DNA of 33,330 nt from Sphingomonas sp. (lineage in GTDB: Bacteria; Pseudomonadota; Alphaproteobacteria; Sphingomonadales; Sphingomonadaceae), in the NCBI RefSeq assembly GCF_025362505.1, contig NZ_JANYGG010000092.1, positions 1 to 33,330 on the forward strand, given 5' to 3'. The notes beneath the pieces are model-generated. The model ran no database searches. It was not told the DNA's origin and saw only the letters and a program-made list of their open reading frames with translations. Shown here in pieces: positions 3,550 through 21,785 of this stretch (positions within the stretch are counted from its first letter, which is position 1; each line of letters starts with the position of its first letter). The translations under genes were made by a program, and so were the position numbers.

Positions 3550-4705
3550 CCTGCGCCGCTTTCCAGTCGCGTCTGATCTTCTTGGCCAAGCTCCATTTGT
3601 GGACCTCGGTCGGGCCGTCATAGATGCGAAAGGCACGGATTTCGCGGAACATCTGTTCGACGATGGTGTCGCCGCTGACCCCGCTGCCCCCCATCACCTG
3701 GACCGCGCGGTCGGCGACCCGCATCAGCGCCTCCGACACCGCCACTTTGGTCATCGAGCTCTCGATCGTTCCGAGCGAGCCGCCATCGAGCACGTCGGCG
3801 CACCAGTCGATCATCAGCTCGGCCTGTTTCAGGTCGATCAAATTCTCGGCCAGCATGAAACCGACGCCTTCATGATCGACCAGTGGCTTGCCGAAGGCAT
3901 GACGGCGGTTGGCATAGTCGCTGGCGATGCCATTGGCTCGGATACAGCCGCCCAGCCAGCGCATGCAATGCGACAGCCGCGCCGGGCTCAATCGCACCTG
4001 CGCCAGCCGGAACCCGTCTCCGGCCGCGCCGAGCATCTGCTCGCCAGGGACTCGCAATCCCTCGATTGCCACTAGGGAATGCCCGCCCGGCATCGACGAA
4101 TCGATTGTGTCGAGCACCCGTTCGATACGGATTGCCGGCTCGGGCAGGTCGACCAGGAACAGGCACGCACCCTCGTCGGCCATGGCCATGACGATCCCGA
4201 CACTGGCTCCGTCGGCGCCGGTGATGAATGTCTTGCGTCCGTCGATCCGCCAGCCATTGCCGTCGCGCACCGCCCTTGTCTGCATCATCGACGGATCGGA
4301 CCCGGCGCCACCCTCGGCTGCGGGTTCGGTCATGAAGAAGGCCGAACGTGCCTCGCCGCTGACTAGCGGCGCGAGGAAGCGCGCTTTCTGCGCCTCGTTC
4401 GCGACCTTGCCGAGTAAGTACATATTCCCCTCATCGGGGGCCATGGTGTTGAGCGCGACTGGACCCAGTGGCGATAGGCCCGACGCGCGCAGCACCAGTG
4501 CAGTCTCGCGCTGGCTGAGGTGGCCGCCATTGTCGAGGATGTGCGGGGTCATCAGCCCGGCAGCACGGGCTTTATCACGCAGTTCGGCGACCAGCCCTGC
4601 CGACGGCCCGTGCGCCCCGCGTCGTGAATCGGCCTCGTAAGGGACGACAGTCTGACGGACGAAGGCTTCGACCCTGGCCGCCAGCGCTATGGCGCGCGCG
4701 CTCAC
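3542..4705 (-). CDS. Acyl-CoA dehydrogenase (ACAD10/11-like)
   Basis: A 387-residue FAD-dependent acyl-CoA dehydrogenase catalysing alpha,beta-desaturation of an acyl-CoA. Recognisable parts are FFMTEPAAEGGAGSDPSMMQ (124-143) for flavin binding, DGRKTFITGADGA, the helical C-terminal domain with NRRHAFGKPL, VMGGSGVSGD, and the tail RIYDGPTEVHKWSLAKKI. At the position of the usual catalytic Glu (YEG) this protein has Asp363 (YDG), as in the ADGPDEVH tail known from ACAD10/11-type enzymes. These often act on branched, hydroxylated or cyclic substrates. Start is GTG at 4705, overlapping the E2 stop by four bases (GTGA), so translation is probably coupled. The downstream crotonase overlaps by 8 bp. 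Confidence 0.92.
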   Translation of the reverse strand: MSARAIALAARVEAFVRQTVVPYEADSRRGAHGPSAGLVAELRDKARAAGLMTPHILDNGGHLSQRETALVLRASGLSPLGPVALNTMAPDEGNMYLLGKVANEAQKARFLAPLVSGEARSAFFMTEPAAEGGAGSDPSMMQTRAVRDGNGWRIDGRKTFITGADGASVGIVMAMADEGACLFLVDLPEPAIRIERVLDTIDSSMPGGHSLVAIEGLRVPGEQMLGAAGDGFRLAQVRLSPARLSHCMRWLGGCIRANGIASDYANRRHAFGKPLVDHEGVGFMLAENLIDLKQAELMIDWCADVLDGGSLGTIESSMTKVAVSEALMRVADRAVQVMGGSGVSGDTIVEQMFREIRAFRIYDGPTEVHKWSLAKKIRRDWKAAQGE

Positions 4706-6105
4706 GCAAACAACGCCTCAGGGCTTTCGATCAGTTCGCGCAGCGTCGCCATGAACCTCGCCGCCGCAGCCCCGTCGATGGCGCGATGATCGACCGACAA
4801 CGATAGTGCCAGTCGGGTGGCGAAGCCAAGCGAGTTGTCGGCGCGCTCCATCGGGGCACGCGCGGCGGCGCCGATCGCCAGGATCGCCCCTTGTGGAGCG
4901 TTGATGATCGCGTCGAACTGGTCGATCCCGAACATGCCGAGGTTGGAGATTGAGAAAGTGCCGCCGTCCATGTCTGCATAAGACAGCCGGCCGGTGCCAG
5001 CCTTGTCGATCAATGCGCGCGACGCCGCAGCGATCTGGTCGATCCGCATCAGGTCGGCCGACCTGATCACGGGCATCACCAGCCCCGATGGCGCGGCCAC
5101 CGCGATCGCCACATCGGCGCGGGCAAAGCGATGGATATTGTCGCCGTGGACCTGGATATTGACACCGGGGTGGCGCACCAGCGCCAGCGCCACCGCGCGA
5201 ACTAGATAATCGTTGAGCGAGGCCTTGGTCCCGAGCACGAGGTTGGCGGTCTTGCGCAGCGCCAGCAGCGCGTCGATGTCGACCGTCATGCGCAAATAGA
5301 AATGGGGAACGTCGCGTTTGGTTTCGGTGACTTTGCGCGCAACCAGCTTGCGGATCTTGTCCATTGGCTCGATCGTCGGGGGATTGTGGCCGGCGTCAAT
5401 CGACGCTTCTCTGGCATGCGCGATGATTCGGGCTCGGGCCAGCACGTCGGCCTTGGCAATCCGCCCGCGCGGGCCGGTTCCGGTCAGGCTCGACAAGTCG
5501 ATCCCGTGCATCGCCGCCAGCCGCCGCGCCAGCGGTGAGGCATAGATCGCGACTTCCCCGTCGGGCAGCACCGCCGGACCGCGCAGCGCCGGGCTGGCCG
5601 GCCCTCGCAGCGCGCGTACGACGTCCTGATGCGTGATCCGGCCATTGCGACCCGACCCGCTGATCGGGTCGATGTCGACGCCTTCGGCCTCGGCCAGCCT
5701 GAGCGCCTCGCGGCTGATCGCGCGATTGGTGTTGATCTTGGCAGGGGCGTCGGCGGGCACATCGGCAGGCGCGGGTTTGTCCGCCGGTTGCGCCGTGACC
5801 GCCGTATTCGCCGGGCGGAACGCTGCAATGAACGCATCAATCTCGGCATCGCTTGCTCCGGCGTCGCCAAATATGCCCAGCAACGTCCCGACCGGGTGCG
5901 CTTCGCTCCCCGCTTCGACCAGTCGTCGGCGCAGGACCAAGTCGAACTCGGCCTCGACCTCGTTGGTGATCTTGGCGGTTTCGATCAGGCACAAGGTCTG
6001 ACCGCGGGTGAACGCCTGGCCTTCATCGATCATCCATTCGGCGATCGTGCCTTCGGTCATTTCGATGCCCCACTTGGGCATGCAGAAGGGGCGAATGTCG
6101 GTCAT
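4702..6105 (-). CDS. Dihydrolipoamide acyltransferase (E2) of a 2-oxoacid/acetoin dehydrogenase-like complex
   Basis: A 467-residue E2 that would carry acyl groups on lipoamide and transfer them to CoA. Domains in order: lipoyl domain (~1-78) with the lipoylated Lys45 in IETAK; a linker rich in Ala and Pro (~100-124); one E3/E1-binding domain (~128-166) ending in GSGRNGRITHQDV; a second such domain (~189-226) with ASPLARRLAA and GTGPRGRIAKADV; and the catalytic domain (~245-467) with DHRAIDG, where His440 and Asp444 are the catalytic pair. Two binding domains in tandem are less usual. ATG at 6105 follows GAGGAG; the longer open frame upstream overlaps E1-beta and is rejected. The gene lies 10 bp after E1-beta and overlaps the next ACAD. 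No E3 gene is in the window. Confidence 0.93.
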   Translation of the reverse strand: MTDIRPFCMPKWGIEMTEGTIAEWMIDEGQAFTRGQTLCLIETAKITNEVEAEFDLVLRRRLVEAGSEAHPVGTLLGIFGDAGASDAEIDAFIAAFRPANTAVTAQPADKPAPADVPADAPAKINTNRAISREALRLAEAEGVDIDPISGSGRNGRITHQDVVRALRGPASPALRGPAVLPDGEVAIYASPLARRLAAMHGIDLSSLTGTGPRGRIAKADVLARARIIAHAREASIDAGHNPPTIEPMDKIRKLVARKVTETKRDVPHFYLRMTVDIDALLALRKTANLVLGTKASLNDYLVRAVALALVRHPGVNIQVHGDNIHRFARADVAIAVAAPSGLVMPVIRSADLMRIDQIAAASRALIDKAGTGRLSYADMDGGTFSISNLGMFGIDQFDAIINAPQGAILAIGAAARAPMERADNSLGFATRLALSLSVDHRAIDGAAAARFMATLRELIESPEALFA

Positions 6106-6115
6106 GCTCGCCTCC

Positions 6116-7126
6116 TCAGCGCCACGACAGCGACTTGCGCACCGCCGCCTCGATCTTATCGACCGAGGGGAGGTAGGCCGTTTCGAGTTCGCGCGCGAAC
6201 GGGATCGGGGTGTGCGGCGGTGTGACCGACATCGGCGGCGCCTTGAGGCTGGCAAACGCTTTCTCGGCGACCAGCGCACAAATGTCACCGGCGAGGCCGC
6301 AGCGCGGCGGGGTCTCGTCAACAACCACTAGCCGCCCCGTTACCTCGACCGAATCGAGGATTGCTTCCTCGTCAAGCGGGCTAGTTGTGCGCAGATCGAT
6401 CACGTCGCAGCCGATCCCCTCGGCGGCGAGCTTGTCGGCGACCATCTCACAGAAACCGAGCAGCAATCCCGACGACACGATCGTAACGTCGTCACCGGCG
6501 CGCGATAAGCGGGCGTGGCCGAACGGAATAGTGTAGTCGCCGTCGGGCACTTCGCCGCTCATTCCATAGAGTGCCTTGTGCTCAAGGAAAATGACCGGGT
6601 CGTCGTCGCGGATCGCAGTGCGCAGCAAGCCCTTCACGTCGGCCGGGGTCGACGGAATCACAACCTTCAGGCCGGGCATTCCAGTCAGGATCTGATGAAC
6701 CGACTGGCTGTGCTGCGCAGCGGCATTGTAACCCGCGCCATAGGCCATCCGAACGACCGCGGGGCAGGTCGTCTTGCCGCCGAACATGTAGCGGAACTTG
6801 CCCATCTGGTTCCACAGCTGGTCGAGCGAGACGCCGATGAAGTCGGCGAACATCAGCTCGGCGATCGGGCGCTTGCCGGCCAACGCGAGGCCTGAGGCGG
6901 CACCGATGATCGCGCTTTCCGAAATCGGCGTGTCGATCACCCGGTCCTTGCCGAATTTCTCGAACAGCCCGACCGACGTCGACCAGATCCCGCCGATCGC
7001 CTCCGGCCCTCCCGCCGTGCCCATCCCGCCGACGAGATCCTCGCCGAGCACGACGACATTGGGGTCGCGCGCCATTTCCTCGGCGATCGTCGACAGGACG
7101 GCGTCGCGGTACATCATGATGGGCAT
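6116..7126 (-). CDS. E1 component beta subunit, TPP-dependent 2-oxoacid/acetoin dehydrogenase type
   Basis: A 336-residue transketolase-like beta subunit that pairs with the E1-alpha encoded just upstream to form the thiamine-diphosphate active site. It starts MPIMMYRDAV and shows VVVLGEDLVGG with the Glu-Asp region at ~29, FADFIGVSLDQLWNQMGKF, then AAQHSQSVHQIL carrying the conserved His of the substrate channel, and the C-terminal domain with IDLRTTSPLD. The length and alpha/beta split match acetoin dehydrogenase (AcoB-type) and branched-chain 2-oxoacid dehydrogenases; sequence alone does not decide. ATG at 7126 has AGGAAA upstream and lies 16 bp after the alpha-subunit stop. The open frame extends further upstream but only inside the alpha gene. 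Confidence 0.92.
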   Translation of the reverse strand: MPIMMYRDAVLSTIAEEMARDPNVVVLGEDLVGGMGTAGGPEAIGGIWSTSVGLFEKFGKDRVIDTPISESAIIGAASGLALAGKRPIAELMFADFIGVSLDQLWNQMGKFRYMFGGKTTCPAVVRMAYGAGYNAAAQHSQSVHQILTGMPGLKVVIPSTPADVKGLLRTAIRDDDPVIFLEHKALYGMSGEVPDGDYTIPFGHARLSRAGDDVTIVSSGLLLGFCEMVADKLAAEGIGCDVIDLRTTSPLDEEAILDSVEVTGRLVVVDETPPRCGLAGDICALVAEKAFASLKAPPMSVTPPHTPIPFARELETAYLPSVDKIEAAVRKSLSWR

Positions 7127-7142
7127 AACTTTTTTCCTGCCG

Positions 7143-8114
7143 TCAGTAGCTGATGTAGACGTCGGTGAGGACATCTTCGGAGGTCGGGCGCGCGGCGGCG
7201 CGGGCGTCGGTGACGGCCTGCTCGATCGTTGCCATGACGGCATCGTCGATCGCGTCCAGGTCGCCTGCGTCGAGCAACTTCGACTGCGCGATATGGGCGC
7301 GGAAATTCTTGATGCAATCGCGCGTCGCGCGGATCCGGTCGAGCTCTCCTTCGCCGCGATAGCGTTGCGGGTCGCCCTCGAAATGGCCGAAGAAGCGCTC
7401 GGTATCGAATTCGACCGCCGCTGGTCCGCCGCCACCGCGGACATGATCGAGCACTTCGCGCATGGTGTCGGTGACGGCGAAGAAATCGGTCCCGTCGGCG
7501 CGCCACACCTTCATCCCGAAGGCTTCGGCCCGGCTGGCGATGTCCTTCGCCGTTCCAACGGCGTATTCGAACCCGGTATGTTCGGAATAATGGTTATTCT
7601 CGAACACGAATATGCACGGGGCGTGGGTGACGACGGCGAAGTTCATCGCTTCGAATGTCGTGCCCTGGTTGCAGGCACCGTCGCCCGAAAAGGCGATCGC
7701 GACCTTTCCCTTGCCGTCGATCTTGGCCGACAGCGCGGCGCCGACTGCAATCGGTGCGCCGGCGCCGACGATGCCATTGGCACCGAGCATGCCTTTATCG
7801 ACATCGGCAATGTGCATCGACCCGCCCTTGCCCTTGCACAGTCCTTCGCGGCTGCCCCAAATCTCCATCATCATGCCGGTCACGTCGCATCCCTTGGCAA
7901 GGCAATGGCCATGGCCGCGGTGGGTCGAAACGATCTTGTCCTCGGCGCCGAGCTGCTCGCAGACCCCTACCGCGACTGCTTCCTGACCGCAGTAGAGATG
8001 CGTAAAGCCGGCGATCTCGCCGGTCTGGATCTCGGTATGAAGCCGTTCCTCGAACTCGCGGATTGTCTTCATCTGGCGATAAGCGCGCGTCAGCGCGTCA
8101 CGGTCTAACTGCAT
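7143..8114 (-). CDS. E1 component alpha subunit, TPP-dependent 2-oxoacid/acetoin dehydrogenase type
   Basis: A 323-residue alpha subunit holding the pyrophosphate side of thiamine diphosphate. The hallmark motif is GDGACNQG (~144-151) closing with ENN near 172-174, the GDG-X(n)-NN pattern of TPP enzymes. RGHGH at 66-70 and the GKGGSMHIAD segment are also standard. The chosen start (ATG 8114) gives MQLDRDALTRAYR, where AcoA/PDH-alpha proteins usually begin. An in-frame ATG at 8147 directly after the ACAD stop (TGAATG) would add 11 residues and cannot be ruled out. Together with beta and E2 it would decarboxylate a 2-oxoacid or cleave an acyloin or diketone to an acyl group and pass it to lipoamide. 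Its place between two ACAD genes suggests a pathway-specific role rather than central metabolism. Confidence 0.92.
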   Translation of the reverse strand: MQLDRDALTRAYRQMKTIREFEERLHTEIQTGEIAGFTHLYCGQEAVAVGVCEQLGAEDKIVSTHRGHGHCLAKGCDVTGMMMEIWGSREGLCKGKGGSMHIADVDKGMLGANGIVGAGAPIAVGAALSAKIDGKGKVAIAFSGDGACNQGTTFEAMNFAVVTHAPCIFVFENNHYSEHTGFEYAVGTAKDIASRAEAFGMKVWRADGTDFFAVTDTMREVLDHVRGGGGPAAVEFDTERFFGHFEGDPQRYRGEGELDRIRATRDCIKNFRAHIAQSKLLDAGDLDAIDDAVMATIEQAVTDARAAARPTSEDVLTDVYISY

Positions 8115-8147
8115 CGCTCTACTGTCCCTTCGAGACCTGCCGGACAT

Positions 8148-9368
8148 TCACAGGCCCAGCACCGTCTTGGCAATGATGTTTGATTGAATTTCGTTCGTCC
8201 CGCCAAAAATCGTCCATGCGCGGCTGTTGAGATAACGCGGAGTGGCGACCTGGGCGGCGCGAGAATGTATTGGCAACGGGGCGTTTTCGCCATAAAGCGG
8301 CCGCGCTTCCTCAAGTTGGAGGCCAACCGCGCCGAACAGGTCGACCGCGGCCAGGTCGATGTCCTGCCGCAGATTCGATGCCAGCAGCTTGATAAGCGAC
8401 GTCTCCGGTCCGGCCGGGCGACCCTTGGCGATATCGGCCAGGATCTTCAGCTCAATCATTTCCAGCGCCTGCACGCGCAGGTGTATTGCGGCTATGCGAC
8501 GCCGCCACTGTGGCTGGTCGGCCAGTTTCCCGCCACGGCCATCGGGCTGGTCGGCGGCGTCGGCGATCACTTGGTCAAGGTCATAACCCAGCTTGGGTGC
8601 GTGGCATGACCCCCCGCGCTCGTTCTCGAGCAGGAACTTGGCGATTCGCCAGCCATCGCCCTCGGCCCCGACAAGGTCGCTTGCCGCCACTTCGACATCC
8701 GCGAGGAACACCTGGTTGACCTCATGGTCGCCGGCCAGCGTCAGGATCGGGCGGATGCTGATGCCCGGTTGTTTCAGGTCGATCAGCAGGAAGCTGATGC
8801 CCCGCTGCTTGCGCTCGCCATTGTCGGTGCGGACCAAGCAGAACATGCGGTTGGCGAGATGCGCGTGGGTGGTCCAGATCTTCGACCCGTTGACGATGTA
8901 TCGGTCGCCCGCGGAATCGCTGACCCGCACCGCACGGCATTGCAGCGAGGCGAGGTCCGAGCCGCTGCCGGGCTCTGAAAATCCCTGGCACCAGTAATCC
9001 TCGCCCGACAGGATTCGGGGCAGATAATATGCTTTCTGCGCGTCGCTGCCAAAGCTGTAGATTACCGGCGCGACCAGTTTCAGCCCGAGCACAGTCAGGT
9101 TAGGCGCGCCCGCCAGCGCGCATTCCTTTTCGAAAATGTAACGCTCGACCGGGGTCCACCCAGTGCCACCATGCGCCTGCGGCCACTGATAGGCGAGCCA
9201 GCCTTGGCGATTGAGAACCGCGTTCCAGCTTTCGCCAATGTCGGGTTCGACAAACACCGTCGGCGATGCCGCCGCGCCGGTGCGAATGCGTTCGGGCAGG
9301 TTATGCTCGAGAAAGGCGCGAACCTCGTCGCGGAACGCGGTCTCGGCCGGGGACAGGTCGATATCCAT
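8148..9368 (-). CDS. Acyl-CoA dehydrogenase (large-subunit type)
   Basis: A 406-residue ACAD. N-terminal domain with GESWNAVLNRQGWLAYQWP, the flavin motif QGFSEPGSGSDLASL (128-142), GSKIWTTHAHLAN, and the C-terminal IFGGTNEIQSNIIAKTVLGL. The FGGTNEIQ end is seen in ACADs of steroid and alicyclic degradation, where the base comes from a Glu elsewhere, and the LLENERGG helix is a candidate region. Such enzymes often need a second, shorter ACAD subunit; the 368-residue product of 13649-14755 would suit (inference). ATG at 9368 comes one base after the thiolase-like stop. It is the third gene of the operon that begins at 10904. Confidence 0.93.
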   Translation of the reverse strand: MDIDLSPAETAFRDEVRAFLEHNLPERIRTGAAASPTVFVEPDIGESWNAVLNRQGWLAYQWPQAHGGTGWTPVERYIFEKECALAGAPNLTVLGLKLVAPVIYSFGSDAQKAYYLPRILSGEDYWCQGFSEPGSGSDLASLQCRAVRVSDSAGDRYIVNGSKIWTTHAHLANRMFCLVRTDNGERKQRGISFLLIDLKQPGISIRPILTLAGDHEVNQVFLADVEVAASDLVGAEGDGWRIAKFLLENERGGSCHAPKLGYDLDQVIADAADQPDGRGGKLADQPQWRRRIAAIHLRVQALEMIELKILADIAKGRPAGPETSLIKLLASNLRQDIDLAAVDLFGAVGLQLEEARPLYGENAPLPIHSRAAQVATPRYLNSRAWTIFGGTNEIQSNIIAKTVLGL

Positions 9369-9369
9369 G

Positions 9370-10515
9370 TCAGCGCTCCATTATGGTGACGGCGGATACG
9401 CCGGGCGCGCCATAGACATGGCTGTAGGCGGTTTTCGGGGTGCCGGGGACCTGCCGCCCACCGCCGTCGCCGCGAAGCTGGACTACATTCTCATACACCT
9501 GCCGAAGCCCCGACGCGCCAATCGGCTCTCCGCAGGCAAGGCAGCCGCCATCGGTGTTGATCGGCAATGAGCCGTGAATTTCGGTTCGGCCTTCGGCCAG
9601 CCATTGTTCTTGCTCGCCATCGCGGCAGAACCCGTTTTCGGCAAGATGCATGATCTCCGCCCCGGCCTCGGTATCCTGCAACTGGGCGACGGCAATATCC
9701 TTGGGACTGATCCCGGCCGAGTCGAAGGCGGCCTTGCTGGCAAGGGTGGTCGCCGACCCGCCACGGATCACGTCGATCGACGGGGCGAACACCTCGAACG
9801 ATCCGGGCGGGCGGGTGCGCATCGTCACTGCCTTCAGCCGCACCAGCGGCCGCCCCAGTTCGCGCGCCTTTTTCTCGGACGCCAGCACCAGCGCGACACC
9901 GCCTTCGGCGGGTGAGCAAAACATATATTTGGTGTACGGATCGCTGACCAGCGGCGCGTCCATGATCGTTGCAAGCGGCACCGTCTCGCGCCGCCACGCG
10001 TGCGGTGCATGGACCGCATTACGAAACGCTTTTTCGGCAACCCGGCCCAGACTGGCCGGGCTGATGCCGTGTAGGTGCATGTAGCGCGTGATCTTGGCCG
10101 CAAAGAATTGCGTGGTGATCATGTAGCCGGCCTCGCCATACCAGTCGGGCAGGCCATAGTCGGCGGGCATAGCGTTAAACGCGCCACGAGGATGCTTGTC
10201 GAAGCCCACCGCCAGCCCGATGTCATACTCGCCGGACTTGATCGCCATCTGTGCCGAGAATAGGGCCGATCCACCCGCCGCACAGCCGTTGCGGACGTTG
10301 ATGAACTGGACTCCGGTCAGGCCCAGCCGGTCGATCATCGTGTCGGGGTTGCCGGCGGCGTCGGACGCGCCATAGGCGAATTGGACGTGCGGCCACTCGA
10401 TCCCGGCGTCGGCCAGCGCCGCCCGCACCGCGAACACGCCCTGGTCGATGCCCGATCGCCCTTCGGTGCGCCCGAACGGATGGATGCCGATGCCGATAAT
10501 GCAGACGTCGCTCAT
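9370..10515 (-). CDS. SCP2-type thiolase-like protein, probable Ltp2-type retro-aldolase
   Basis: A 381-residue thiolase-fold protein of the lipid-transfer-protein group. The nucleophile region is kept (NVRNGCAAGG, Cys78). The usual C-terminal catalytic His motif GHPxGATG is changed to GEPIGASG (Glu in place of His), within GGCLACGEPIGASG. The final glycine-rich Cys loop is replaced by SHVYGAPGVSA with Tyr368. These changes are typical of thiolase relatives that pair with DUF35 proteins and, in the known Ltp2 case, cleave a 3-hydroxyacyl-CoA side chain by retro-aldol reaction with catalytic Tyr residues. The start overlaps the DUF35 stop by four bases, so the two partners are translationally coupled. 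A classical thiolase is unlikely given the missing His. Confidence 0.88.
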   Translation of the reverse strand: MSDVCIIGIGIHPFGRTEGRSGIDQGVFAVRAALADAGIEWPHVQFAYGASDAAGNPDTMIDRLGLTGVQFINVRNGCAAGGSALFSAQMAIKSGEYDIGLAVGFDKHPRGAFNAMPADYGLPDWYGEAGYMITTQFFAAKITRYMHLHGISPASLGRVAEKAFRNAVHAPHAWRRETVPLATIMDAPLVSDPYTKYMFCSPAEGGVALVLASEKKARELGRPLVRLKAVTMRTRPPGSFEVFAPSIDVIRGGSATTLASKAAFDSAGISPKDIAVAQLQDTEAGAEIMHLAENGFCRDGEQEQWLAEGRTEIHGSLPINTDGGCLACGEPIGASGLRQVYENVVQLRGDGGGRQVPGTPKTAYSHVYGAPGVSAVTIMER

Positions 10516-10904
10516 GACCGCCTCGCAGGGCGGAATGCCGGGATCATCCGCTGGTCTGGGAAGGCCGGATCAAGCGGCACTGCGGTCAGCGTTAGCGGCA
10601 TGCCGATTGACAGCGATTCAGCCGATACGCCGTCGATCCGCGCCTCGACGATAGTTTCGCCGGGCAGTTCCACATAGCCGACGATCCACGGCACAAAGTC
10701 GTCAGGCCCGGCATAGGGCGGCGATTTGGGGCGATAGCGCTGCACCGTCCACGACCATAAGCTGCCATCGCGGCCCAGCGGCACGAGGTCGAAATCCTCG
10801 CTACCCGGAAACGGAAACACGATCCGGCCCGACTCGCGATGACGCCCGCCAACTAGGCGCGGCGGCGATTCATCGGTGAACAGGCCTTTGGAAATTGCCT
10901 TCAT
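10512..10904 (-). CDS. DUF35 OB-fold protein, partner of the thiolase-like enzyme
   Basis: A 130-residue protein with the DUF35/OB-fold layout: PPRLVGGRHRESGRIVFPFP at the N terminus, where a rubredoxin-like zinc ribbon normally sits, then LWSWTVQRYRPKSPPY and WIVGYVELPGETIVEARIDG of the OB fold. In zinc-binding members the first half has two CxxC pairs. Here the first pair is His-x-x-Ser and there is no Cys anywhere in the protein, so it cannot bind zinc in the usual way. In steroid degradation, DUF35 domains dock the Ltp2 aldolase; the adjacent coupled gene suggests the same here. It is the first gene of the eight-gene operon. ATG at 10904 is used; a GGAGG lies about 17 bases upstream, farther than normal. 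Confidence 0.85.
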   Translation of the reverse strand: MKAISKGLFTDESPPRLVGGRHRESGRIVFPFPGSEDFDLVPLGRDGSLWSWTVQRYRPKSPPYAGPDDFVPWIVGYVELPGETIVEARIDGVSAESLSIGMPLTLTAVPLDPAFPDQRMIPAFRPARRS

Positions 10905-11056: not shown

Positions 11057-12676
11057 ATGGCGAAACGCTATGACTACATCATTATCGGCGCGGGCTCGGC
11101 CGGGTGCGTGTTGGCCGAGCGGCTGAGCGCCGACGGTCGTTCTCAGGTGCTGCTGCTCGAAGCGGGCGGCGACAATGACGGTTTCTGGGTGCGGCTGCCT
11201 AAGGGGGTGGCCAAGCTGGTCACCAACCCGGCCCACATCTGGGCCTATCCAGTGGCGCAGCCGCGCGAACCCGGCCAGCCGTCGAACGAAGTATGGATTC
11301 GCGGCAAGGGGCTGGGCGGGTCGTCAGCGGTCAACGGCATGATCTGGAGTCGCGGCGAACCGGCCGACTATGATGCGTGGGAGGCGGCCGGGGCGACCGG
11401 CTGGAACGGCGCCAGCATGACCGAGGCGTATCTCGCACTCGAAGACCATGCCGCCGGCGCCAGCGCGACGCGCGGCAGCGGTGGCCCGGTTCACATCGAT
11501 CCGGCGATCTACCGCTATCCGCTGGCCGACCGGATGATCGAGGCGGGCGAAGCGACCGGCCTCAAGCGGGTCGACGACCTCAACGGCTCGACCGGTCCGC
11601 GGGTTGGCTTCTACAGTCACAATATCCGACGCGGTGAACGGCAAAGCGCGGCCAGCACCTTCCTCCACCGCGCCCGTCGCCGGCCTAACCTGGCGATCGT
11701 CACCCACGCGCTGGCCGAGCGTATCCTGTTCGACAATCGCCGCGCGACCGGGGTCGAGGTGACGGTCGCGGGCGAGCGGCAGCGGTTCGACTGCGCTTGC
11801 GAGGTCATCGTCAGCGGCGGCGCCATCGAAAGCCCGTTTCTCCTCCAGCGATCGGGCATTGGCGATACCGACAAACTGTCGGCGGCGGGCATCGTGCCGC
11901 TGGTCCAATCGCCTGACGTGGGCGAGGGGATGATTGAGCATCTGTCGCTGTCGATGCCGTTCCGGCTGACCAGCGGGCAAGGGACCCAGCGCAGCTTCGC
12001 CGGGCTAGGGCTGATCGCGGCGATGGCCCGCTGGGCGTTGACCCGGGGCGGGATCATGGCGACCGGCCCATTTGAGGTAGGGGCGTTCCTCAATGTCGCC
12101 AATCCCGACCGACGCCCCGACGTCCAGCTTTACCTTGGCGGCTACACGTTCGCGGTCGGCGACGACAACAACCCGGTCCCGCTCGACAAGATCGATCCGC
12201 GCCCTGGGGTCACCATTTATGGATCGATGCTGCGCCCGACTAGCCGCGGTTCGGTGCACGTCACCGGGAGATCGATCAGTGATGCGCCTGACATCCGCCC
12301 AAACTGGCTGTCGACAGACCAAGATTGCGCGACGGCGGTGGCGATGGTGCGGGCAATGCGGCGCTACATGGCGGCGGCGCCACTAGGCAACCTCGTCGGC
12401 GAGGAAGTTCTGCCGGGAGCGAAGGTCGAAAGCGATGAGGATATCCTCGCCGCCTTCCGCCGCCTGTCGAGCAGCGGGCTGCACGCAGTCGGCACCTGCC
12501 GCATCGGCTATGACAATCGTGCGGTTGTCGACCCGCGTCTCCGCGTCAACGGCGTCGAAAGGCTGCGGGTGGCGGATTGTTCGGTCATGCCCGGCGCGGT
12601 CACCGGAAACACCAACGCCCCGGCGATGGCGCTCGGGCTGCGCGCGGCGGAATTGATCCTCACCGATCGACACTAG
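11057..12676 (+). CDS. GMC-family FAD-dependent alcohol oxidoreductase (choline dehydrogenase-like)
   Basis: A 539-residue glucose-methanol-choline family flavoprotein that would oxidise a primary or secondary alcohol. The N terminus has the FAD fold IIIGAGSAGCVLAERLS (G11, G13, G16), then the family signature RGKGLGGSSAVNGMIWSRG, and SGGAIESPFLLQRSGIG, the second GMC signature. The active-site pair is His476 in GLHAVGTCRIG and an Asn near 518 in GAVTGNTNAP. ATG at 11057 is preceded by GGGAG; an upstream in-frame extension to 10982 is not family-like. There is no signal peptide, so a cytoplasmic enzyme is expected. It is divergent from the large operon and convergent with the LuxR-type regulator. 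The substrate may be a hydroxylated pathway intermediate. Confidence 0.92.
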   Translation: MAKRYDYIIIGAGSAGCVLAERLSADGRSQVLLLEAGGDNDGFWVRLPKGVAKLVTNPAHIWAYPVAQPREPGQPSNEVWIRGKGLGGSSAVNGMIWSRGEPADYDAWEAAGATGWNGASMTEAYLALEDHAAGASATRGSGGPVHIDPAIYRYPLADRMIEAGEATGLKRVDDLNGSTGPRVGFYSHNIRRGERQSAASTFLHRARRRPNLAIVTHALAERILFDNRRATGVEVTVAGERQRFDCACEVIVSGGAIESPFLLQRSGIGDTDKLSAAGIVPLVQSPDVGEGMIEHLSLSMPFRLTSGQGTQRSFAGLGLIAAMARWALTRGGIMATGPFEVGAFLNVANPDRRPDVQLYLGGYTFAVGDDNNPVPLDKIDPRPGVTIYGSMLRPTSRGSVHVTGRSISDAPDIRPNWLSTDQDCATAVAMVRAMRRYMAAAPLGNLVGEEVLPGAKVESDEDILAAFRRLSSSGLHAVGTCRIGYDNRAVVDPRLRVNGVERLRVADCSVMPGAVTGNTNAPAMALGLRAAELILTDRH

Positions 12677-12747: not shown

Positions 12748-13575
12748 CTACTTATTGAGCGAGATGTAGCCCAATTGCGACGCTTTGAATACGGTCTGGC
12801 TGCGATTGACCGCGTTCAACTTTATCGAGGCATTGTGGAGGTGAAACCGCACTGTCGCCCGGCTGCGCGACATGATCATGCTGATTTCGAGGTCGGTCTT
12901 GCCGATCGCCGCCCAGCGCAGGCACTCGACCTCGCGCTTCGACAGCCGCGATCCCGGCGGCAACGCCTGGAACGAGCCCATTACATGGACATAGGAAGCG
13001 ATGAAGGTGCGCGCGTAGAGTCCCAATTCATCGCCGAGTTCGAGATAGGCTTGCTCCAAATCAGTGAGCGAGGGATCAAGCGGATTGAAACTGATCGCGC
13101 CGATCTGGCCGAATGGCAAATGCACCGGGACCACGATCGCAGCGATGGTCATCGCCCGTTTCTCAAAATTGGTCAGGTCGATTCCCGACAGATAGAGGTT
13201 CGGCAGGCGGGTATGGAAGCCTCCAGCATTCACCCAGAACGCATCGCTTTCGAACCGGCAGGCCGAGGTAAGTGGTGAATCAAGCGCGATGCGGCTGTTC
13301 TTCCACCACACCTTGTCCTCGCCGCCCCAGCCGAAAATCTCGCTCGCCAGCGGTTGGCCGTCGGCATCGACGGGGGTCCGCTTGCCGGCGATGTCATGGG
13401 CCGGCGCGGCGCGAAAGCCGTGGGCCAGCGACAAGTCGTTAAGCGCCCGCGCCGCGCGACGAACGTCGGCCGGATCAGCGATGCGCACCGCGTCAATCGT
13501 GGCTTGCGGAAACAGCGATCGATCCTCCCCGATCTTTGGACAGTTCCAAACTAATCCTAGGCCAGGCCCCGCCAA
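12748..13575 (-). CDS. LuxR-family transcriptional regulator
   Basis: A 275-residue regulator. The C-terminal ~65 residues are a LuxR-type helix-turn-helix: LSKREVECLRWAAIGKTDLE, then ISMIMSRSRATVRFHLHNAS and the dimer helix. The N-terminal ~200 residues look like the GAF-like autoinducer-binding class of sensor domain (WGGEDKVWWKNS is the region that often contacts ligand), but no AHL synthase is in the window, so a pathway metabolite is the likelier effector. No ATG precedes the conserved region; the best start is TTG at 13575, with AGGAAA upstream. It is divergent from the ACAD at 13649 and convergent with the GMC gene. It is the only regulator seen and so the likely controller of the cluster (inference). 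Confidence 0.85.
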   Translation of the reverse strand: MAGPGLGLVWNCPKIGEDRSLFPQATIDAVRIADPADVRRAARALNDLSLAHGFRAAPAHDIAGKRTPVDADGQPLASEIFGWGGEDKVWWKNSRIALDSPLTSACRFESDAFWVNAGGFHTRLPNLYLSGIDLTNFEKRAMTIAAIVVPVHLPFGQIGAISFNPLDPSLTDLEQAYLELGDELGLYARTFIASYVHVMGSFQALPPGSRLSKREVECLRWAAIGKTDLEISMIMSRSRATVRFHLHNASIKLNAVNRSQTVFKASQLGYISLNK

Positions 13576-13648: not shown

Positions 13649-14755
13649 ATGACGTTGAATTTCGATCTCAGCGAAGACGAGCAGATGCTGAAGGCGCTGG
13701 CCGAGCGGTTCGTCGCCGATCGCTACGACATGGACCGACGCCGCGCCTACCAGGCTGGCGACAGAGGCTATTCAACCGACAATTGGACGCTGCTGGCCGA
13801 ACTGGGGCTAGTAGCCGCGCCGTTTGATCCCGAAGATGGCGGTGCCGGCCTCGACGCGACGGCAATCGCTGTGCTGTTTGAAGCGCTCGGAAAGGGACTG
13901 GTGGTCGAACCACTGATCGAAAATGTCCTGGTCGCGGGGCGATTGTTCGCAGCGACCGCGCCAGCCGCGTTGCGCGGGCAATGGCTCGAGGATGTGGTGG
14001 CGGGACGGCGGCGGATCGCGCTGGCTGAAGTCGAATTCGGTAGTCGCGACGGGAAGTCGTGGGTTGAAACGCGCGTGATCGATGACGACCACCTAACCGG
14101 CGAAAAAAGCGTCGTTCCTGCCGCCGGTGGCGTCGACGGCTTCATCGTCACCGCGCGCCGTTCGGGAGCGGCTGGTGACGCGGCTGGAATCGGCCTGTGG
14201 TTCGTAGCCGCCGGCACGCCGGGCCTGACCGTTCGCCACTGGCGGTTAGCCGATGGGTCGGTCGTCGCCTCGCTTTCGCTCGATGGAGTTTCGGCGGTCC
14301 CGCTCGACGGCGGGCCTGACGCGCTTGGCGCCAACTCTCCGCTGGCGTCGCTGGCGCGATCGGCTGAGGCGATCGGGATCATGCAACGATTGCTCGACGA
14401 GACGCTCGAATATCTGCGCACCCGCCAGCAGTTCGGCGTGGCGTTGGGCAGCTTTCAGGCGATCCAGCACCGCATGGCGACGCAATATGCGGTTCTCGAA
14501 CAGGCGCGGGCGCTGGTCGAGGTTGCGATCGTCTCGGCCGCCAGCACTCGCTTCGCGTCGGCGGTCGACGGTGCGCGCGCGTTCATCGCCGAGGCGTCGC
14601 TCACCCTCGGCCATGAAATGATCCAGTTCCACGGCGGCATGGGGGTCAGCGACGAACTGTCAATCGGCCACGCCCATAAAAGGTTGTTGGTGCTGTCGCG
14701 CTGGCCCGAATCGCCTGGCGCGACACTCGACCGAGTGGCGGGGATTGCTGCCTGA
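13649..14755 (+). CDS. Acyl-CoA dehydrogenase, short-subunit type
   Basis: A 368-residue ACAD-fold protein: FDLSEDEQMLKALAERFVAD at the N terminus, PFDPEDGGAGLDATAIAVLF, the middle beta domain with diverged flavin contacts (ALAEVEFGSRDG in place of the TEP-GSD motif), and the C-terminal TRQQFGVALGSFQAIQHRMA and IQFHGGMGVSDELSIGHAHK. The C terminus lacks both the YEG/FGGT-type loop and an obvious catalytic Glu. Short ACADs of this kind act as one half of alpha2beta2 enzymes in steroid degradation; the 8148-9368 product is a candidate partner. GGAGGA lies only two bases before ATG 13649, so the TTG at 13655 (product starting with FDL-type N terminus) may be the real start. Its stop abuts the ThuA-like stop in a palindrome. 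Confidence 0.9.
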   Translation: MTLNFDLSEDEQMLKALAERFVADRYDMDRRRAYQAGDRGYSTDNWTLLAELGLVAAPFDPEDGGAGLDATAIAVLFEALGKGLVVEPLIENVLVAGRLFAATAPAALRGQWLEDVVAGRRRIALAEVEFGSRDGKSWVETRVIDDDHLTGEKSVVPAAGGVDGFIVTARRSGAAGDAAGIGLWFVAAGTPGLTVRHWRLADGSVVASLSLDGVSAVPLDGGPDALGANSPLASLARSAEAIGIMQRLLDETLEYLRTRQQFGVALGSFQAIQHRMATQYAVLEQARALVEVAIVSAASTRFASAVDGARAFIAEASLTLGHEMIQFHGGMGVSDELSIGHAHKRLLVLSRWPESPGATLDRVAGIAA

Positions 14756-15538
14756 TCAGGCGCGCGCGCGCTGCTTGACCCAACCGATCCCGCGTCGCAG
14801 CAGATCGTAAAACACCGGCAGGTCCCACGCGCAGCGATCGACGGTCGGCCACCAGTCGAGCAGCGGCTGGAGGTCGTAATGGCCCCGGCAATGGCCGAGC
14901 GTCAGGTACAGCACCGCGCCCTCGCCATGCTGTTTAATGTAGAACACCGGGTGACTGCCCGGCGCCTCCGCGGCCTCGGCAAAACCGGCGCCAGGCTCGT
15001 TGCATACGGTTTCTAGCAGTACTTGCAGCTCGCCGTGGGTTTCGAGATGATACAGCTCGTCGCTGGTCTCGAACGGCTCGACTCCGGCAACCAGCGGATG
15101 TGCCGGATCGGCGACGGTCACCAAATAGGGCGCAATCGGCGGGTGGGAGATGAATTGCGAGCCCAACAAATCCATCATCAGCGGCGCCCAGCGCGGCGCG
15201 TCCCACAGCCCTTGGTTCGGACCGTCGGTGAGCAGGCGCAGCACCGAATTGGTGCCGTGCAGTGCATACCAGCGACCGCCGCTGGCCAACCAGTCGCGCA
15301 GCGCCTCCTGTGCCTTCAGCGAGGGGGTGACGTCGCAGGTGTAGGTGATGAGGATATCGGCCGCCGCGATCGCCGCGACATTCTCATAATCCTCGAACAC
15401 CCGGGTGCGGACTCGCTCGTCTTCGGCTAGCAGCTTGAGCAGCTCAAGCCGGGCGAAGTCCATGTCGTGCCATACCCCTCCGCACACCAGCACACAGTCG
15501 ATGCGGGGTGGGTGGGGTGTGCCTCCGTCCTCGCTCAC
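14756..15538 (-). CDS. ThuA-like domain protein
   Basis: A 260-residue protein of the ThuA family, a class-I glutamine-amidotransferase-like fold named from trehalose utilisation. Visible features are the opening strand CVLVCGGVWHDMDFARLELL, DILITYTCDVTPS, LRDWLASGGRWYALHGTNS (the flavodoxin-like core with the GG-x-ALH turn), HPLVAGVEPFETSDELYHLE and a late GEGAVLYLTLGHC. The ALHG/DELYHLE combination is characteristic. The biochemical role of these proteins is poorly known and no sugar genes are intact nearby. The start is GTG at 15538, overlapping the Rieske oxygenase stop by GTGA, so it is co-translated with that enzyme and probably serves the same step. Confidence 0.85.
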   Translation of the reverse strand: MSEDGGTPHPPRIDCVLVCGGVWHDMDFARLELLKLLAEDERVRTRVFEDYENVAAIAAADILITYTCDVTPSLKAQEALRDWLASGGRWYALHGTNSVLRLLTDGPNQGLWDAPRWAPLMMDLLGSQFISHPPIAPYLVTVADPAHPLVAGVEPFETSDELYHLETHGELQVLLETVCNEPGAGFAEAAEAPGSHPVFYIKQHGEGAVLYLTLGHCRGHYDLQPLLDWWPTVDRCAWDLPVFYDLLRRGIGWVKQRARA

Positions 15539-16986
15539 GCCTTTCGCCCAAGCTCGCCCGACAGATATTTGTCGAGCGTCTGCTCAAACTGGCGGACCCG
15601 GATTTCCTGGTAATCGCCGAGATTGATCAGGCCATTCTTCGAACATTTAAGCCCGTCCTGGACGAACGGCAGGTTCGACATGTCCTGTTCGAACACGTCG
15701 CCCAGAATGCCGATTTCGGCGGCAGCGGTCCACGGCTCGTCGGGGCCGAGCAATTTCATCGGCACCCCGCGCGGGATCGGCTCGCCCTTTTTCACGCGGA
15801 CCAGGATGCGCACTTCCATCAGGCAGGTATCGACGGTCTTGCCGGGCCGCCAGCGATAAACGATGTTGGGCATAAAACCGCCCCATGGCGCGAAATTGGG
15901 GAAAACGTTATAGACCAGCCCGTCGAGCAGTTCCGCGTCGGTGGCATCCTCATGATCATAGCCGGTCTGGGCGGTGTAGCCCGCACGCATCGCCGTCCCC
16001 AGAGCTTTGCGCGCGCTGACCCCGGCGGGCACCTTGACCGCATAGGGATCGGCTTCGCCAGCCGGCTTTGGATCCTCGTAATTATCCGCTGAGCGGCCGT
16101 TGTATTTGACGAATTCGTCGACGATCCATTGCTCGGTCTTGCCGGCAGGATCGACGTGCGGCGACATCACCCCGAACGGCACCAGGTTGACGCTCACATG
16201 GTCGCCCCACGTCCAATAGGCCGAATTGCTGTCGCCGGTGAACGGCAAGATCTGGGGGTGGGTGATGACGGTGTGCCACGCTTCCATGAAGGCTTCCATC
16301 GTCACCTTCCAGTTGGCCGGGACCTCCTTGGCGACCCAGATGACGGTTGTGCATTCCTCGTGCCGCCAGCGTTTGAAATGGTCGGGCAAAGGCGCGAGAA
16401 ATTCCTCAAGAGTGGGCCCGCCCGGTTCTTCACGCAGAAAAATATAGCCGCCCCAGCGCGCCACTTCGGCCTCGGGTAAAGCCATCCTGTCAGGGGATAG
16501 ATGGCCGAAGTCCCAGGCGCACGGCATCGACCGGAAGCTGCCGTCCTTATTCCAGGAAAAGCCGTGGAAAGGGCAGGTGAACTGATCGGCGGCGCCATCC
16601 TCTGTGCGCAATTTGCGCCCACGGTGGAGGCAGACATTGTGGTGCGCGCGGACCGATCCGTCGTCCTGGCGGCTGACCAGATAGGAGCGCCCGGCGTTTT
16701 CGAACACGATATAGTCGCCGGCATCGGGCAGATCTTCGTCGCGCGCCGCGAATTGCCAGACATAGGGCCACATATGGGTGCGCTCGGCCTCGGCGAATGC
16801 CTCGCTGGTATATCGATCAGTGGTGAGCGTGTCTGAGCCGCGATAGTGATAACTTTCCTCGGTCAAGCAGGCCGGAGCCGGCCGCGAATCCTGCGCCATC
16901 AGCTCGGTCCAACTGATTCCCTCGCAGCGTGCCTGTCCGCCGTGATAAGGTCCGCCGCCGTTGATTTGCGGTTCTCTATCGGCCAT
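15535..16986 (-). CDS. Rieske non-heme iron oxygenase alpha subunit (first of three)
   Basis: A 483-residue oxygenase alpha subunit. The Rieske [2Fe-2S] ligands are Cys119-x-His121 and Cys138-x-x-His141 (CLHRG and CPFHGFSW). The mononuclear iron site follows NWKVTMEAFMEAWHTVITHP with His238 and His243; Glu235 occupies the bridging position where naphthalene-type enzymes have Asp. It would hydroxylate or dihydroxylate a ring or alicyclic substrate with O2 and electrons from a ferredoxin. It is longer than the other two, with an extra ~35 residues at the N terminus. ATG at 16986 follows GAGGAG; the longer upstream frame crosses the promoter and is rejected. It forms an operon with the ThuA-like gene and is divergent from three SDR genes, which could oxidise its product. 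Confidence 0.92.
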   Translation of the reverse strand: MADREPQINGGGPYHGGQARCEGISWTELMAQDSRPAPACLTEESYHYRGSDTLTTDRYTSEAFAEAERTHMWPYVWQFAARDEDLPDAGDYIVFENAGRSYLVSRQDDGSVRAHHNVCLHRGRKLRTEDGAADQFTCPFHGFSWNKDGSFRSMPCAWDFGHLSPDRMALPEAEVARWGGYIFLREEPGGPTLEEFLAPLPDHFKRWRHEECTTVIWVAKEVPANWKVTMEAFMEAWHTVITHPQILPFTGDSNSAYWTWGDHVSVNLVPFGVMSPHVDPAGKTEQWIVDEFVKYNGRSADNYEDPKPAGEADPYAVKVPAGVSARKALGTAMRAGYTAQTGYDHEDATDAELLDGLVYNVFPNFAPWGGFMPNIVYRWRPGKTVDTCLMEVRILVRVKKGEPIPRGVPMKLLGPDEPWTAAAEIGILGDVFEQDMSNLPFVQDGLKCSKNGLINLGDYQEIRVRQFEQTLDKYLSGELGRKA

Positions 16987-17122
16987 CGCCTGCTCCTCTT
17001 CCGATACTATTTTATTTGGCCCGACGGTGACCGCCGGCCCGGCCTGCGTCACCTTGCCGAAAGCATAGGTTACGCCCCTAAGATTATTCGCCAAACCATT
17101 TTCTTGTGCGCAGGAGAGAGCA
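16987..17122. promoter_or_regulatory. Divergent promoter region between Rieske oxygenase and SDR operon
   Basis: A 136-bp gap with a locally AT-rich segment (ACTATTTTATTTGG near 17005-17019), unusual for this DNA and a likely promoter area. An inverted pair GGTGAC (17026-17031) and GTCACC (17048-17053) is spaced 22 bp start to start, about two helical turns, which could be a dimeric operator. No further support is available. Confidence 0.4.
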
Positions 17123-17905
17123 TTGACCAACAGGTTGACGGGCAAGGTGGCACTGGTCACCGGCGGCACTAGCGGGATCGGCGCGGGCACGGTGCGGCGG
17201 CTGGCGGCCGAAGGCGCGGCAGTGGTGTTCACCGGGTCGAACGAGGCGGCGGCTCAGTCGGTTGAAGCCGATACCGGCGCGGTGTTCGCCGCCCACCGGG
17301 TCGAGGATGCGGCCGCCTGGCCGGCGCTGATGAGCGACATCATCGCCCGCTTCGGCCGGCTCGACATAGCCTTCGCCAACGCCGGCACCGAACACGGCGA
17401 CAGCAGCGTCGAAGACATCGCCATCGACGGCTGGAACCACGTTGTCGCCGTCAACCAGACCGGGATGATGCTGACCGTCCAACACGCGATTCGCGCGATG
17501 AAGCAGAATCCGGGCGGCGAGACCGGGTCGATCATCGTCAATTCGTCGATGAACGCCAACCGGGCGATGGGCAATTTCGTCGCTTATTCGGTAACCAAGG
17601 CGGCGGTGGTGGCACTGGTCAAATCGGCGGCGGTACATTGCGGCAATCGTGGCTACAAGATTCGGGTCAACGCGATCCTGCCGGGCGTTGTAGAGACTGC
17701 GATGATCCGCGGATTGATCGACGGCGCGGGCGACCCGGCCGCGGCGCGCGCCGCTTATGAAGGCATGTCGCCGTTCAAACGCATGGCCCATGTCGACGAG
17801 ATCGCCGGGCTAGTCGCCTATCTCGGCTCGGACGAAGCGGCGTTCGTATCGGGCAGCGAGTTCGTCATCGATGGCGCCACCACCGCCGGGATGATGGGGG
17901 TATGA
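17123..17905 (+). CDS. SDR-family oxidoreductase (first of three overlapping SDR genes)
   Basis: A 260-residue classical short-chain dehydrogenase/reductase. The cofactor motif is TGGTSGIG (13-20), with NAG at 86-88, Asn111, Ser142, Tyr155 and Lys159 in the normal spacing (SSMN and YSVTK). PG at the end of the catalytic domain (NAILPGVVET) is also present. The start is a TTG at 17123, with AGGAGAG seven bases upstream; no better ATG exists before the conserved fold. The stop overlaps the next SDR start (ATGA). It probably oxidises an alcohol or a cis-diol formed by the neighbouring divergent Rieske oxygenase; the substrate is unknown. Confidence 0.9.
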   Translation: MTNRLTGKVALVTGGTSGIGAGTVRRLAAEGAAVVFTGSNEAAAQSVEADTGAVFAAHRVEDAAAWPALMSDIIARFGRLDIAFANAGTEHGDSSVEDIAIDGWNHVVAVNQTGMMLTVQHAIRAMKQNPGGETGSIIVNSSMNANRAMGNFVAYSVTKAAVVALVKSAAVHCGNRGYKIRVNAILPGVVETAMIRGLIDGAGDPAAARAAYEGMSPFKRMAHVDEIAGLVAYLGSDEAAFVSGSEFVIDGATTAGMMGV

Positions 17906-21538: not shown

Positions 21539-21623
21539 TCGACTCTCCTGAACGGCTCTCGGCCTTGGCTTCGCGAGAATGGGCAAGGCGTGAGCGTTTG
21601 GCCACTCGCCATTTGCGCAGGAT

Positions 21624-21785
21624 TCACCTCCAAGGCGGCCAGCGCAGCAAATCTTTGCGCAAAGCGGCCAAGAATTCCGACCAGGAGCGGTCATGATCCG
21701 GGTAAAGGCCGGGTGACGAATAGACGTTGAGATCGACCGCCCTATTGAGCGGGACGTGGGAGGAGAGAGCGACGGTGGCCGTCAC
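21624..21785 (-). CDS. Small ORF, 53 residues, possibly an internally deleted gene
   Basis: It starts with GTG at 21785, overlapping the stop of the broken isomerase-like gene (GTGA), the same coupling used by intact genes in this cluster. The product contains VDLNVYSSPGLYPDHDRSW and ends KDLLRWPPWR, which looks like a genuine protein C terminus rather than random sequence. I do not recognise it. The likely explanation is a gene that lost its middle, leaving the start and the end, as seen in its neighbours. It is also possible that it is a real small protein. Confidence 0.4.
   Translation of the reverse strand: MTATVALSSHVPLNRAVDLNVYSSPGLYPDHDRSWSEFLAALRKDLLRWPPWR

Follow-up and report, generated by a model that had tools for sequence, protein, structure and literature searches.

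The window analyzed here is a stretch of 33,330 bases of Sphingomonas sp. DNA that constitutes one whole contig (G000:C34). Its minus strand carries a compact operon built around an E1-alpha, E1-beta, and E2 gene set of the kind encoding thiamine diphosphate (ThDP)-dependent dehydrogenase complexes. The original prediction, made from the sequence alone, placed these three genes between two acyl-CoA dehydrogenase (ACAD) genes, downstream of a DUF35/thiolase-fold pair, with a crotonase gene after the second ACAD. All eight genes lie on the minus strand at coordinates that we verified, and the tight spacing it described holds throughout, with neighboring genes 1 to 33 bases apart or overlapping by 4:

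10904-10512, minus: DUF35/ChsH2-like OB-fold protein, 130 aa; PF01796, 59.3 bits; cysteine-free.
10515-9370, minus: thiolase-fold, Ltp2/SCP2-thiolase-like partner, 381 aa; 4-base overlap with the DUF35 gene; PF22691 and lipid-transfer models.
9368-8148, minus: ACAD-A, pimeloyl-CoA-dehydrogenase-large-subunit-like, 406 aa; gap of 1; TIGR03204, 344 bits, under the model cut-off.
8114-7143, minus: E1-alpha, 323 aa; gap of 33; PF00676, 255 bits; AcoA type as judged by identity and trees.
7126-6116, minus: E1-beta, 336 aa; gap of 16; PF02779/PF02780; AcoB type as judged by identity and trees.
6105-4702, minus: E2 acyltransferase, 467 aa; gap of 10; PF00364, PF02817 twice, PF00198.
4705-3542, minus: ACAD-B, 387 aa; 4-base overlap with the E2 gene; ACAD10/11-LvaC type as judged by R238, H246, R249, and D363.
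About 3525-2770, minus: crotonase/enoyl-CoA hydratase, 251 aa from the ATG at 3525; PF00378, 162 bits.

The gap between ACAD-B and the crotonase gene is 16 bases, or becomes an overlap if the latter starts at the GTG at 3636. The 540-aa open reading frame listed for E2 is an upstream extension of the 467-aa protein.

The residues that the original prediction had marked as intact proved to be invariant among relatives. This is true of D145, N149, and N174 in the ThDP motif of E1-alpha (81/81 sequences) and of the lipoyl K45 and the H440 and D444 of the DHRAIDG motif in E2 (86/86), the window's own sequence being included in both counts. E2 comprises one lipoyl domain (K45), two peripheral-subunit-binding domains, and one catalytic domain (H440, D444). 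By alignment, this is the same layout as in the acetoin-type E2 proteins of Klebsiella and Acinetobacter, whose two peripheral-subunit-binding domains were judged by eye. E1-alpha also carries a loop reading GHFEGD, which is present in five of six acetoin-type references (the sixth has GHYSGD), and the H and F of this loop are kept in 81/81 sequences, the window's own included. The corresponding loop of pyruvate dehydrogenase (PDH) and branched-chain 2-oxoacid dehydrogenase (BKD) proteins reads (G/A)HSxSD. The GHFEGD loop is diagnostic within the sample compared, rather than by a published definition.

Pairwise comparisons point in the same direction. Over their full length, E1-alpha and E1-beta share 56-57% identity with their counterparts in Klebsiella michiganensis (L103) and Acinetobacter variabilis (L104), and E2 is 38-41% identical to the E2 proteins of these loci. 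In contrast, identities to PDH/BKD-type proteins from the same genome, a relative, and Rhizobium leguminosarum are 25-36% for E1-alpha and about 39-43% for E1-beta. The two reference sets are themselves 73% (E1-alpha), 80% (E1-beta), and 55% (E2) identical to each other. The Acinetobacter locus includes acetoin reductase, butanediol dehydrogenase, and an E3 (dihydrolipoamide dehydrogenase) gene. The Klebsiella locus includes E3 and presumably also serves acetoin catabolism, although no acetoin gene is annotated beside it.

In a FastTree phylogeny of 55 sequences, the 44 from sphingomonads group together (support 0.874), and this clade joins the Klebsiella/Acinetobacter pair (1.0), leaving the PDH/BKD proteins outside. 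An IQ-TREE phylogeny of a hand-picked subset of 48 sequences, with members from other families included, yields a clade of 33 (ultrafast bootstrap 100) that stands apart from all acetoin-type references, and a 29-member part of this clade (ultrafast bootstrap 96) contains the members linked to Rieske oxygenases. With the thresholds applied, the 29-member group is separated from eight acetoin-type E1s by just three positions, two in E1-alpha and one in E1-beta, and therefore the same type of chemistry is likely. Judged by its sequence, the E1/E2 complex is of the acetoin-dehydrogenase type and forms a separate clade beside the acetoin enzymes. A housekeeping PDH or BKD identity was rejected because the trees place E1 outside these enzymes and its loop is not (G/A)HSxSD. 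The original prediction had named as evidence against itself a grouping with pyruvate or branched-chain complexes together with a lack of linkage to ACAD and aldolase genes; both halves were examined, and neither was seen.

The gene order is widely conserved. Neighborhoods were examined over 3-27 kb at 85 loci, comprising the best 80 of 245 confirmed loci in named genomes plus five plasmid loci. After leaving out 13 loci with less than 6 kb upstream, a six-gene block of DUF35, thiolase, ACAD-A, E1-alpha, E1-beta, and E2 genes, in one order and on one strand, is present in 61/72 relatives, which indicates that the arrangement is not due to chance. The E1/E2 triplet has other surroundings in the remaining 11, and also in the second copy described below. 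The three genes are adjacent in 81/85 loci, and the other four loci begin inside the operon. Thus, of the eight-gene order that was proposed as a search pattern for other genomes, the part from DUF35 to E2 is kept, but the crotonase gene lies outside the conserved order: among the mapped loci, no relative has it after ACAD-B on the same strand. Among the 75 relatives with at least 3 kb downstream, 30 carry ACAD-B paired with an APH kinase nearby, and 66 have a VOC-type match directly after E2 when weak matches of 26-33% are counted. In the window, E2 is not followed by a VOC gene, and a homologue search of the same genome returned three matches of 33-39%. The VOC protein of locus L038 matches Glyoxalase_4.

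In a scan of the family, 35/298 genomes, that of the window included, had an E2 relative with an identity of 50% or more. The named loci belong mainly to Novosphingobium, with others in Croceicoccus, Sphingomonas, and further genera. An orthologous operon is present in Novosphingobium aromaticivorans DSM 12444 on pNL2 (SARO_RS18650-18680). A locus from another family (L248) carries the block together with Rieske1, ThuA, and SDR1-3 counterparts of the genes described below. In the other five genomes of the genus that were searched, E2 matches reach E-values of only 1e-61 to 1e-67, like other E2 types. Given these genus-mates without a close E2 and the 5.89% estimated contamination of the assembly, the contig is accessory or possibly foreign.

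Further occurrences of such gene sets were observed. The same genome has a second acetoin-type E1-alpha, E1-beta, and E2 set on contig C14 (L072:8472-11889) that is 73%, 73%, and 49% identical to the first, with ThuA, short-chain dehydrogenase (SDR), Rieske, acyl-CoA ligase, TonB receptor, and another thiolase-like gene as neighbors. An E1/E2 set is also carried by L245, L246, and L247 (family f49, genomes of about 1.3-1.4 Mb). In L246 and L247, it is accompanied by Rieske, ThuA, SDR, ferredoxin, and TonB receptor matches, and a protein of 281-294 aa is encoded directly before E1-alpha.

The original prediction also stated that the operon lacks E3. This description fits the window and 85/85 loci over the stretches examined, but it does not extend to every relative, since 3 of 37 family loci in a second sample (set A) carry a downstream E3. 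Set A consists of L043-L083 minus L054 and L066, which are too short, and L073 and L074, which are flanks from the genome's own contig C14. It partly overlaps the 80 named loci, several of its genomes contribute two loci, and one of its members is the second copy from the genome studied here. The E3 query does recover E3 in L103, L104, L108, and L110. In L044-L046, E3 lies on the same strand 2.4-6.2 kb downstream of E2, and the order in L044 and L045 is DUF35, thiolase, ACAD-A, E1-alpha, E1-beta, E2, ACAD-B, APH, E3. In L238, a basal clade member, E3 directly follows E2. The E3 of the genome studied here seems to be divided between contig C54, where it lies beside another E2, and contig C59, and it is 73-78% identical to the operon-borne E3 of L044. 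This identity makes it plausible that the operon complex borrows an E3 encoded elsewhere in the genome.

ACAD-B offers a hint about the compounds that are processed. Its best matches among solved structures are 4hr3, a putative ACAD (174.7 bits), and ACAD11 (174.5 bits). R238, R243, H246, and R249 are spaced as R626, R631, H634, and R637 of ACAD11, and D363 matches D753; all five residues are invariant in 31/31 sequences. The active site of ACAD11 comprises a catalytic Asp and a phosphate-binding Arg/His/Arg set (PMC12440821), and ACAD10 and ACAD11 phosphorylate 4-hydroxyacyl-CoAs en route to beta-oxidation (PMC12440821, PMC11342911). Because ACAD-B has the residues of the ACAD10/11-LvaC type, a 4-hydroxyacyl-CoA is expected in the pathway. 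The operon resembles the LvaA-LvaC and ACAD10-ACAD11 systems in its catalytic Asp and its phosphate site of identical spacing, as well as in the APH gene that stands beside ACAD-B in the 30 relatives counted above. It differs in that the kinase is not adjacent in the window, where no APH match was found; a homologue 63% identical to the APH protein of L044 is encoded on contig C30 of the same genome.

The thiolase-fold protein had been called an Ltp2-like aldolase. This name stands only at the level of the family and of the DUF35 partner, and the nearest solved structures are the SCP2-thiolase 6hsj and BbsB (7pxp). However, the protein keeps the thiolase Cys (C78) and has Glu (E330) in place of the His of the GHP motif, giving GEP, with both residues invariant in 64/64 sequences, so that it may be an aldolase or a thiolase. 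Its DUF35 partner has no cysteine at all, and thus no zinc ribbon. Although a thiolase-fold protein adjoins DUF35 here as in Ltp2-ChsH2, the SCP2-thiolases, and BbsAB, the GEP motif and the cysteine-free partner set this pair apart from them.

The remainder of the window supplies a second group of genes that bears on function:

11057-12676, plus: GMC oxidoreductase (PF00732/PF05199); in 29/61 full-block loci.
12748-13575, minus: LuxR-type regulator (PF00196); in 51/61 full-block loci.
13649-14755, plus: ACAD-C, pimeloyl-CoA-dehydrogenase-small-subunit-like (TIGR03203, 211 bits, under cut-off); in 48/61 full-block loci.
14756-15538, minus: ThuA-domain protein (PF06283), adjoining Rieske1; in 29/61 full-block loci.
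15535-17232, minus: Rieske1 oxygenase alpha subunit (PF00355/PF00848), true start internal to the open reading frame; in 21/61 full-block loci within the flanks examined.
17123-19493, plus: SDR1-3, three short-chain dehydrogenases; SDR2 by PF13561, SDR1 and SDR3 by homologues in relatives.
20219-21694, minus: Rieske2 oxygenase alpha subunit.
22078-23256, minus: Rieske3 oxygenase alpha subunit.
32829-33179: Rieske ferredoxin.

ACAD-C is likely the partner of ACAD-A. The LuxR regulator has an 80% identical counterpart in L038, SARO_RS18620 (Saro_3549), and the ThuA and Rieske1 genes (14756-17232) overlap and are kept together in many relatives. The remaining genes of the contig encode several SDRs, an acyl-CoA ligase, a TonB receptor, three curcumin-reductase-like proteins (two of them scanned), and a SnoaL-like protein. 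As partners for the Rieske oxygenases, no reductase and no clear beta subunit were recognized among the scanned genes, the SnoaL-like gene at 32329 not having been tested as a beta subunit. The left end of the contig (1-1400) looks eroded: it holds GGGGGTCCCTTTTGGACGCC in two tandem copies near 88-134, which we take to be perhaps an insertion-sequence remnant, and otherwise short open reading frames.

Rieske matches occur near 30/37 loci of set A, within the stretches examined, and near 8/8 clade loci from other families of the class (7/7 without the doubtful L245). As a control, they occur near 0/14 loci of a different E2 type from the same family, which were hand-picked from the listing of the family E2 scan. 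Acetoin-type loci, whose stretches are shorter (about 11-18 kb) than those of the other sets (17-20 kb), have a Rieske match in 1/9 cases. The link to Rieske oxygenases is strong, but it is neither universal nor exclusive. The E2 type used as the control (L084-L094 and L100-L102) is about 35-40% identical to the operon E2, has E3 nearby in 14/14 loci, and has an E1-beta-like match in only 1/14 at the threshold used.

Taken together, we consider it probable, at roughly 0.6, that an AcoABC-type complex has been re-tasked to cleave another acyloin or vicinal diketone, one made by Rieske and SDR enzymes. The original prediction had left a choice among a diketone, an acyloin, and a 2-oxoacid as the substrate; the tree and the GHFEGD loop favor either of the first two and disfavor the third. 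A Rieske oxygenase and an SDR of the cluster would introduce oxygen functions at two neighboring positions of an alicyclic or polycyclic natural product. By analogy with its family, the ThDP-dependent E1 would then cleave the carbon-carbon bond between them and hand the acyl group to the lipoyl domain of E2, which would release it as acyl-CoA, while the other fragment would leave as an aldehyde or ketone. The thioester formed could be a small acetyl unit or a large fragment. ACAD-A with ACAD-C, ACAD-B (with the APH kinase), and the thiolase/DUF35 pair would act on the resulting CoA thioesters, among which a 4-hydroxyacyl-CoA is expected if ACAD-B is read correctly, and the lipoamide would be reoxidized by the E3 encoded elsewhere. 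We infer in particular that the product of the complex feeds the adjacent ACADs. Precedent for the chemistry is found in acetoin E1, which cleaves acetoin, transfers the acyl group to the lipoamide of a second enzyme, and accepts methylacetoin and diketones among its donors (PMC12247030).

Several observations weigh against this interpretation. Seven of the 37 family loci have no Rieske match, nor do any of the four basal clade members (0/4). The Rieske match of L245 is weak (26%), lies about 14 kb from the E1-alpha of the clade, and stands beside a second E1 pair that falls in the acetoin group. One locus of that group, L251, has a Rieske match as well. Genes for Rieske oxygenases and SDRs abound in these bacteria, and the 14 control loci are only a partial safeguard against this. 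Moreover, the acetoin-type references were assigned by operon context, annotation, and recall rather than by assay, and the PDH/BKD labels of unannotated references were assigned in this analysis. Finally, the donor range of acetoin E1 is narrow, covering acetyl and propionyl groups (PMC12247030), and thus cleavage of a methyl ketone fits better than the opening of a large ring.

A special case of acyloin or diketone cleavage would be the excision of a C2 unit as acetyl-CoA from an alpha-hydroxy methyl ketone, for instance a methylacetoin-like compound or one with a 17-hydroxy-20-keto side chain. Being part of that explanation, it shares in the odds given above and does not add to them. The preference of acetoin E1 for acetyl and propionyl donors and its use of methylacetoin (PMC12247030) speak for this version, as does the difference from acetoin-type E1s at only three positions in the comparison made, and the thiolase/DUF35 pair and ACADs would suit stepwise shortening of a side chain. 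However, a cyclic dione would be an equally possible product of the Rieske/SDR pair, and we regard acetyl excision as somewhat doubtful. Diones of this latter kind are cleaved by the cyclohexane-1,2-dione hydrolase of Azoarcus, which is not known to involve transfer to CoA. That enzyme is likewise ThDP-dependent, but it is classed among the decarboxylases and is not an E1/E2 complex (PMC12247030).

The main rival to acyloin or diketone cleavage is that the complex oxidatively decarboxylates a 2-oxoacid, arising from ring or side-chain cleavage, to a CoA thioester. The overall enzyme class would be the same, and the best NCBIfam models for E1-alpha and E1-beta are PDH models, although all score under cut-off. 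Such a step has been proposed for the unrelated EdcC, an indolepyruvate:ferredoxin oxidoreductase-type enzyme of the edc estrogen cluster (Caenibius/Novosphingobium tardaugens). This sphingomonad cluster resembles the operon in its ChsH2-like/lipid-transfer pair, ACADs, and TonB receptor and in a proposed CoA-thioester step after oxidation, but it relies on EdcC, a P450, and an extradiol dioxygenase, with no E1/E2 complex noticed in the excerpts (PMC7793797). None of EdcC, the P450 EdcA, or the extradiol EdcB was found among the contig genes scanned by family models, no edc sequence having been compared. The VOC-type matches after E2 could also be cited in favor of this rival because some VOC proteins are ring-cleaving dioxygenases, but no VOC gene follows E2 in the window and that of L038 matches Glyoxalase_4. 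Since E1 falls with enzymes of acetoin operons, outside PDH/BKD, and its loop is GHFEGD, we judge 2-oxoacid decarboxylation unlikely.

Ordinary acetoin or 2,3-butanediol catabolism, with genes located here by accident, is very improbable and was rejected as the main role, since, although acetoin operons are the closest relatives with a named role, the window has no E3 and no acetoin reductase, butanediol dehydrogenase, or acoX among its scanned genes, the conserved linkage is instead to DUF35, thiolase, and ACAD genes in a separate clade, and butanediol dehydrogenase, acoX, or AcoC-type matches lie near 6/37 clade loci versus 7/9 acetoin-type loci.

The operon thus shares with AcoABC of Klebsiella and Acinetobacter the E1 and E2 identities given above, the GHFEGD loop, and an E2 of lipoyl, two PSBD-like, and catalytic domains. 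It differs in its separate clade, its CoA-thioester/Rieske setting, the usual absence of E3, and the lack of recognized acetoin or butanediol genes. Because it has neither these genes, nor acoX, nor an E3 of its own, we refer to the complex as acetoin-dehydrogenase-type rather than as an acetoin dehydrogenase.

The original prediction knew of no described pathway with this gene order. A search of the open-access literature, with most subscription papers outside its scope, likewise found no description; the block tags used for this search (Saro_3556-3560) were extrapolated from locus numbering. Excerpts on steroid pathways (estrogen, bile acid, saponin) contained no E1/E2 complex, and a steroid may still be the substrate. 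Passages from two Novosphingobium papers on lignans and lignin dimers (PMC12607616, PMC12997858) gave no match for thiamine, thiolase, or acyl-CoA dehydrogenase. The sole mention found of the pNL2 cluster genes is in a DAP-seq announcement, which lists the LuxR regulator Saro_3549 (PMC12352068). What appears to be new is the conserved setting of an acetoin-dehydrogenase-type complex, the complex type itself being already known.

A complex whose known role is to split a four-carbon fermentation product appears here as a conserved partner of ACADs, an ACAD11-type 4-hydroxyacyl-CoA enzyme, and a thiolase/DUF35 pair, with Rieske oxygenases in most of the loci examined. The orthologous pNL2 operon of N. 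aromaticivorans DSM 12444 makes direct testing possible. We tentatively speculate that this reflects a general aerobic catabolic strategy, so far undescribed: an alicyclic natural product would be converted by Rieske and SDR enzymes to an acyloin or 1,2-dione, which an E1/E2 complex of the acetoin-dehydrogenase type would then split by thiolysis into an acyl-CoA, bypassing Baeyer-Villiger or aromatizing ring opening. Many sphingomonads might use this strategy, as might other Alphaproteobacteria, among them a family whose genomes are close to 1.4 Mb. If larger natural-product acyloins or diones are indeed cleaved in this manner, then the operon would add to catabolism a new way of breaking carbon-carbon bonds and would supply ThDP enzymes that act on new donors.

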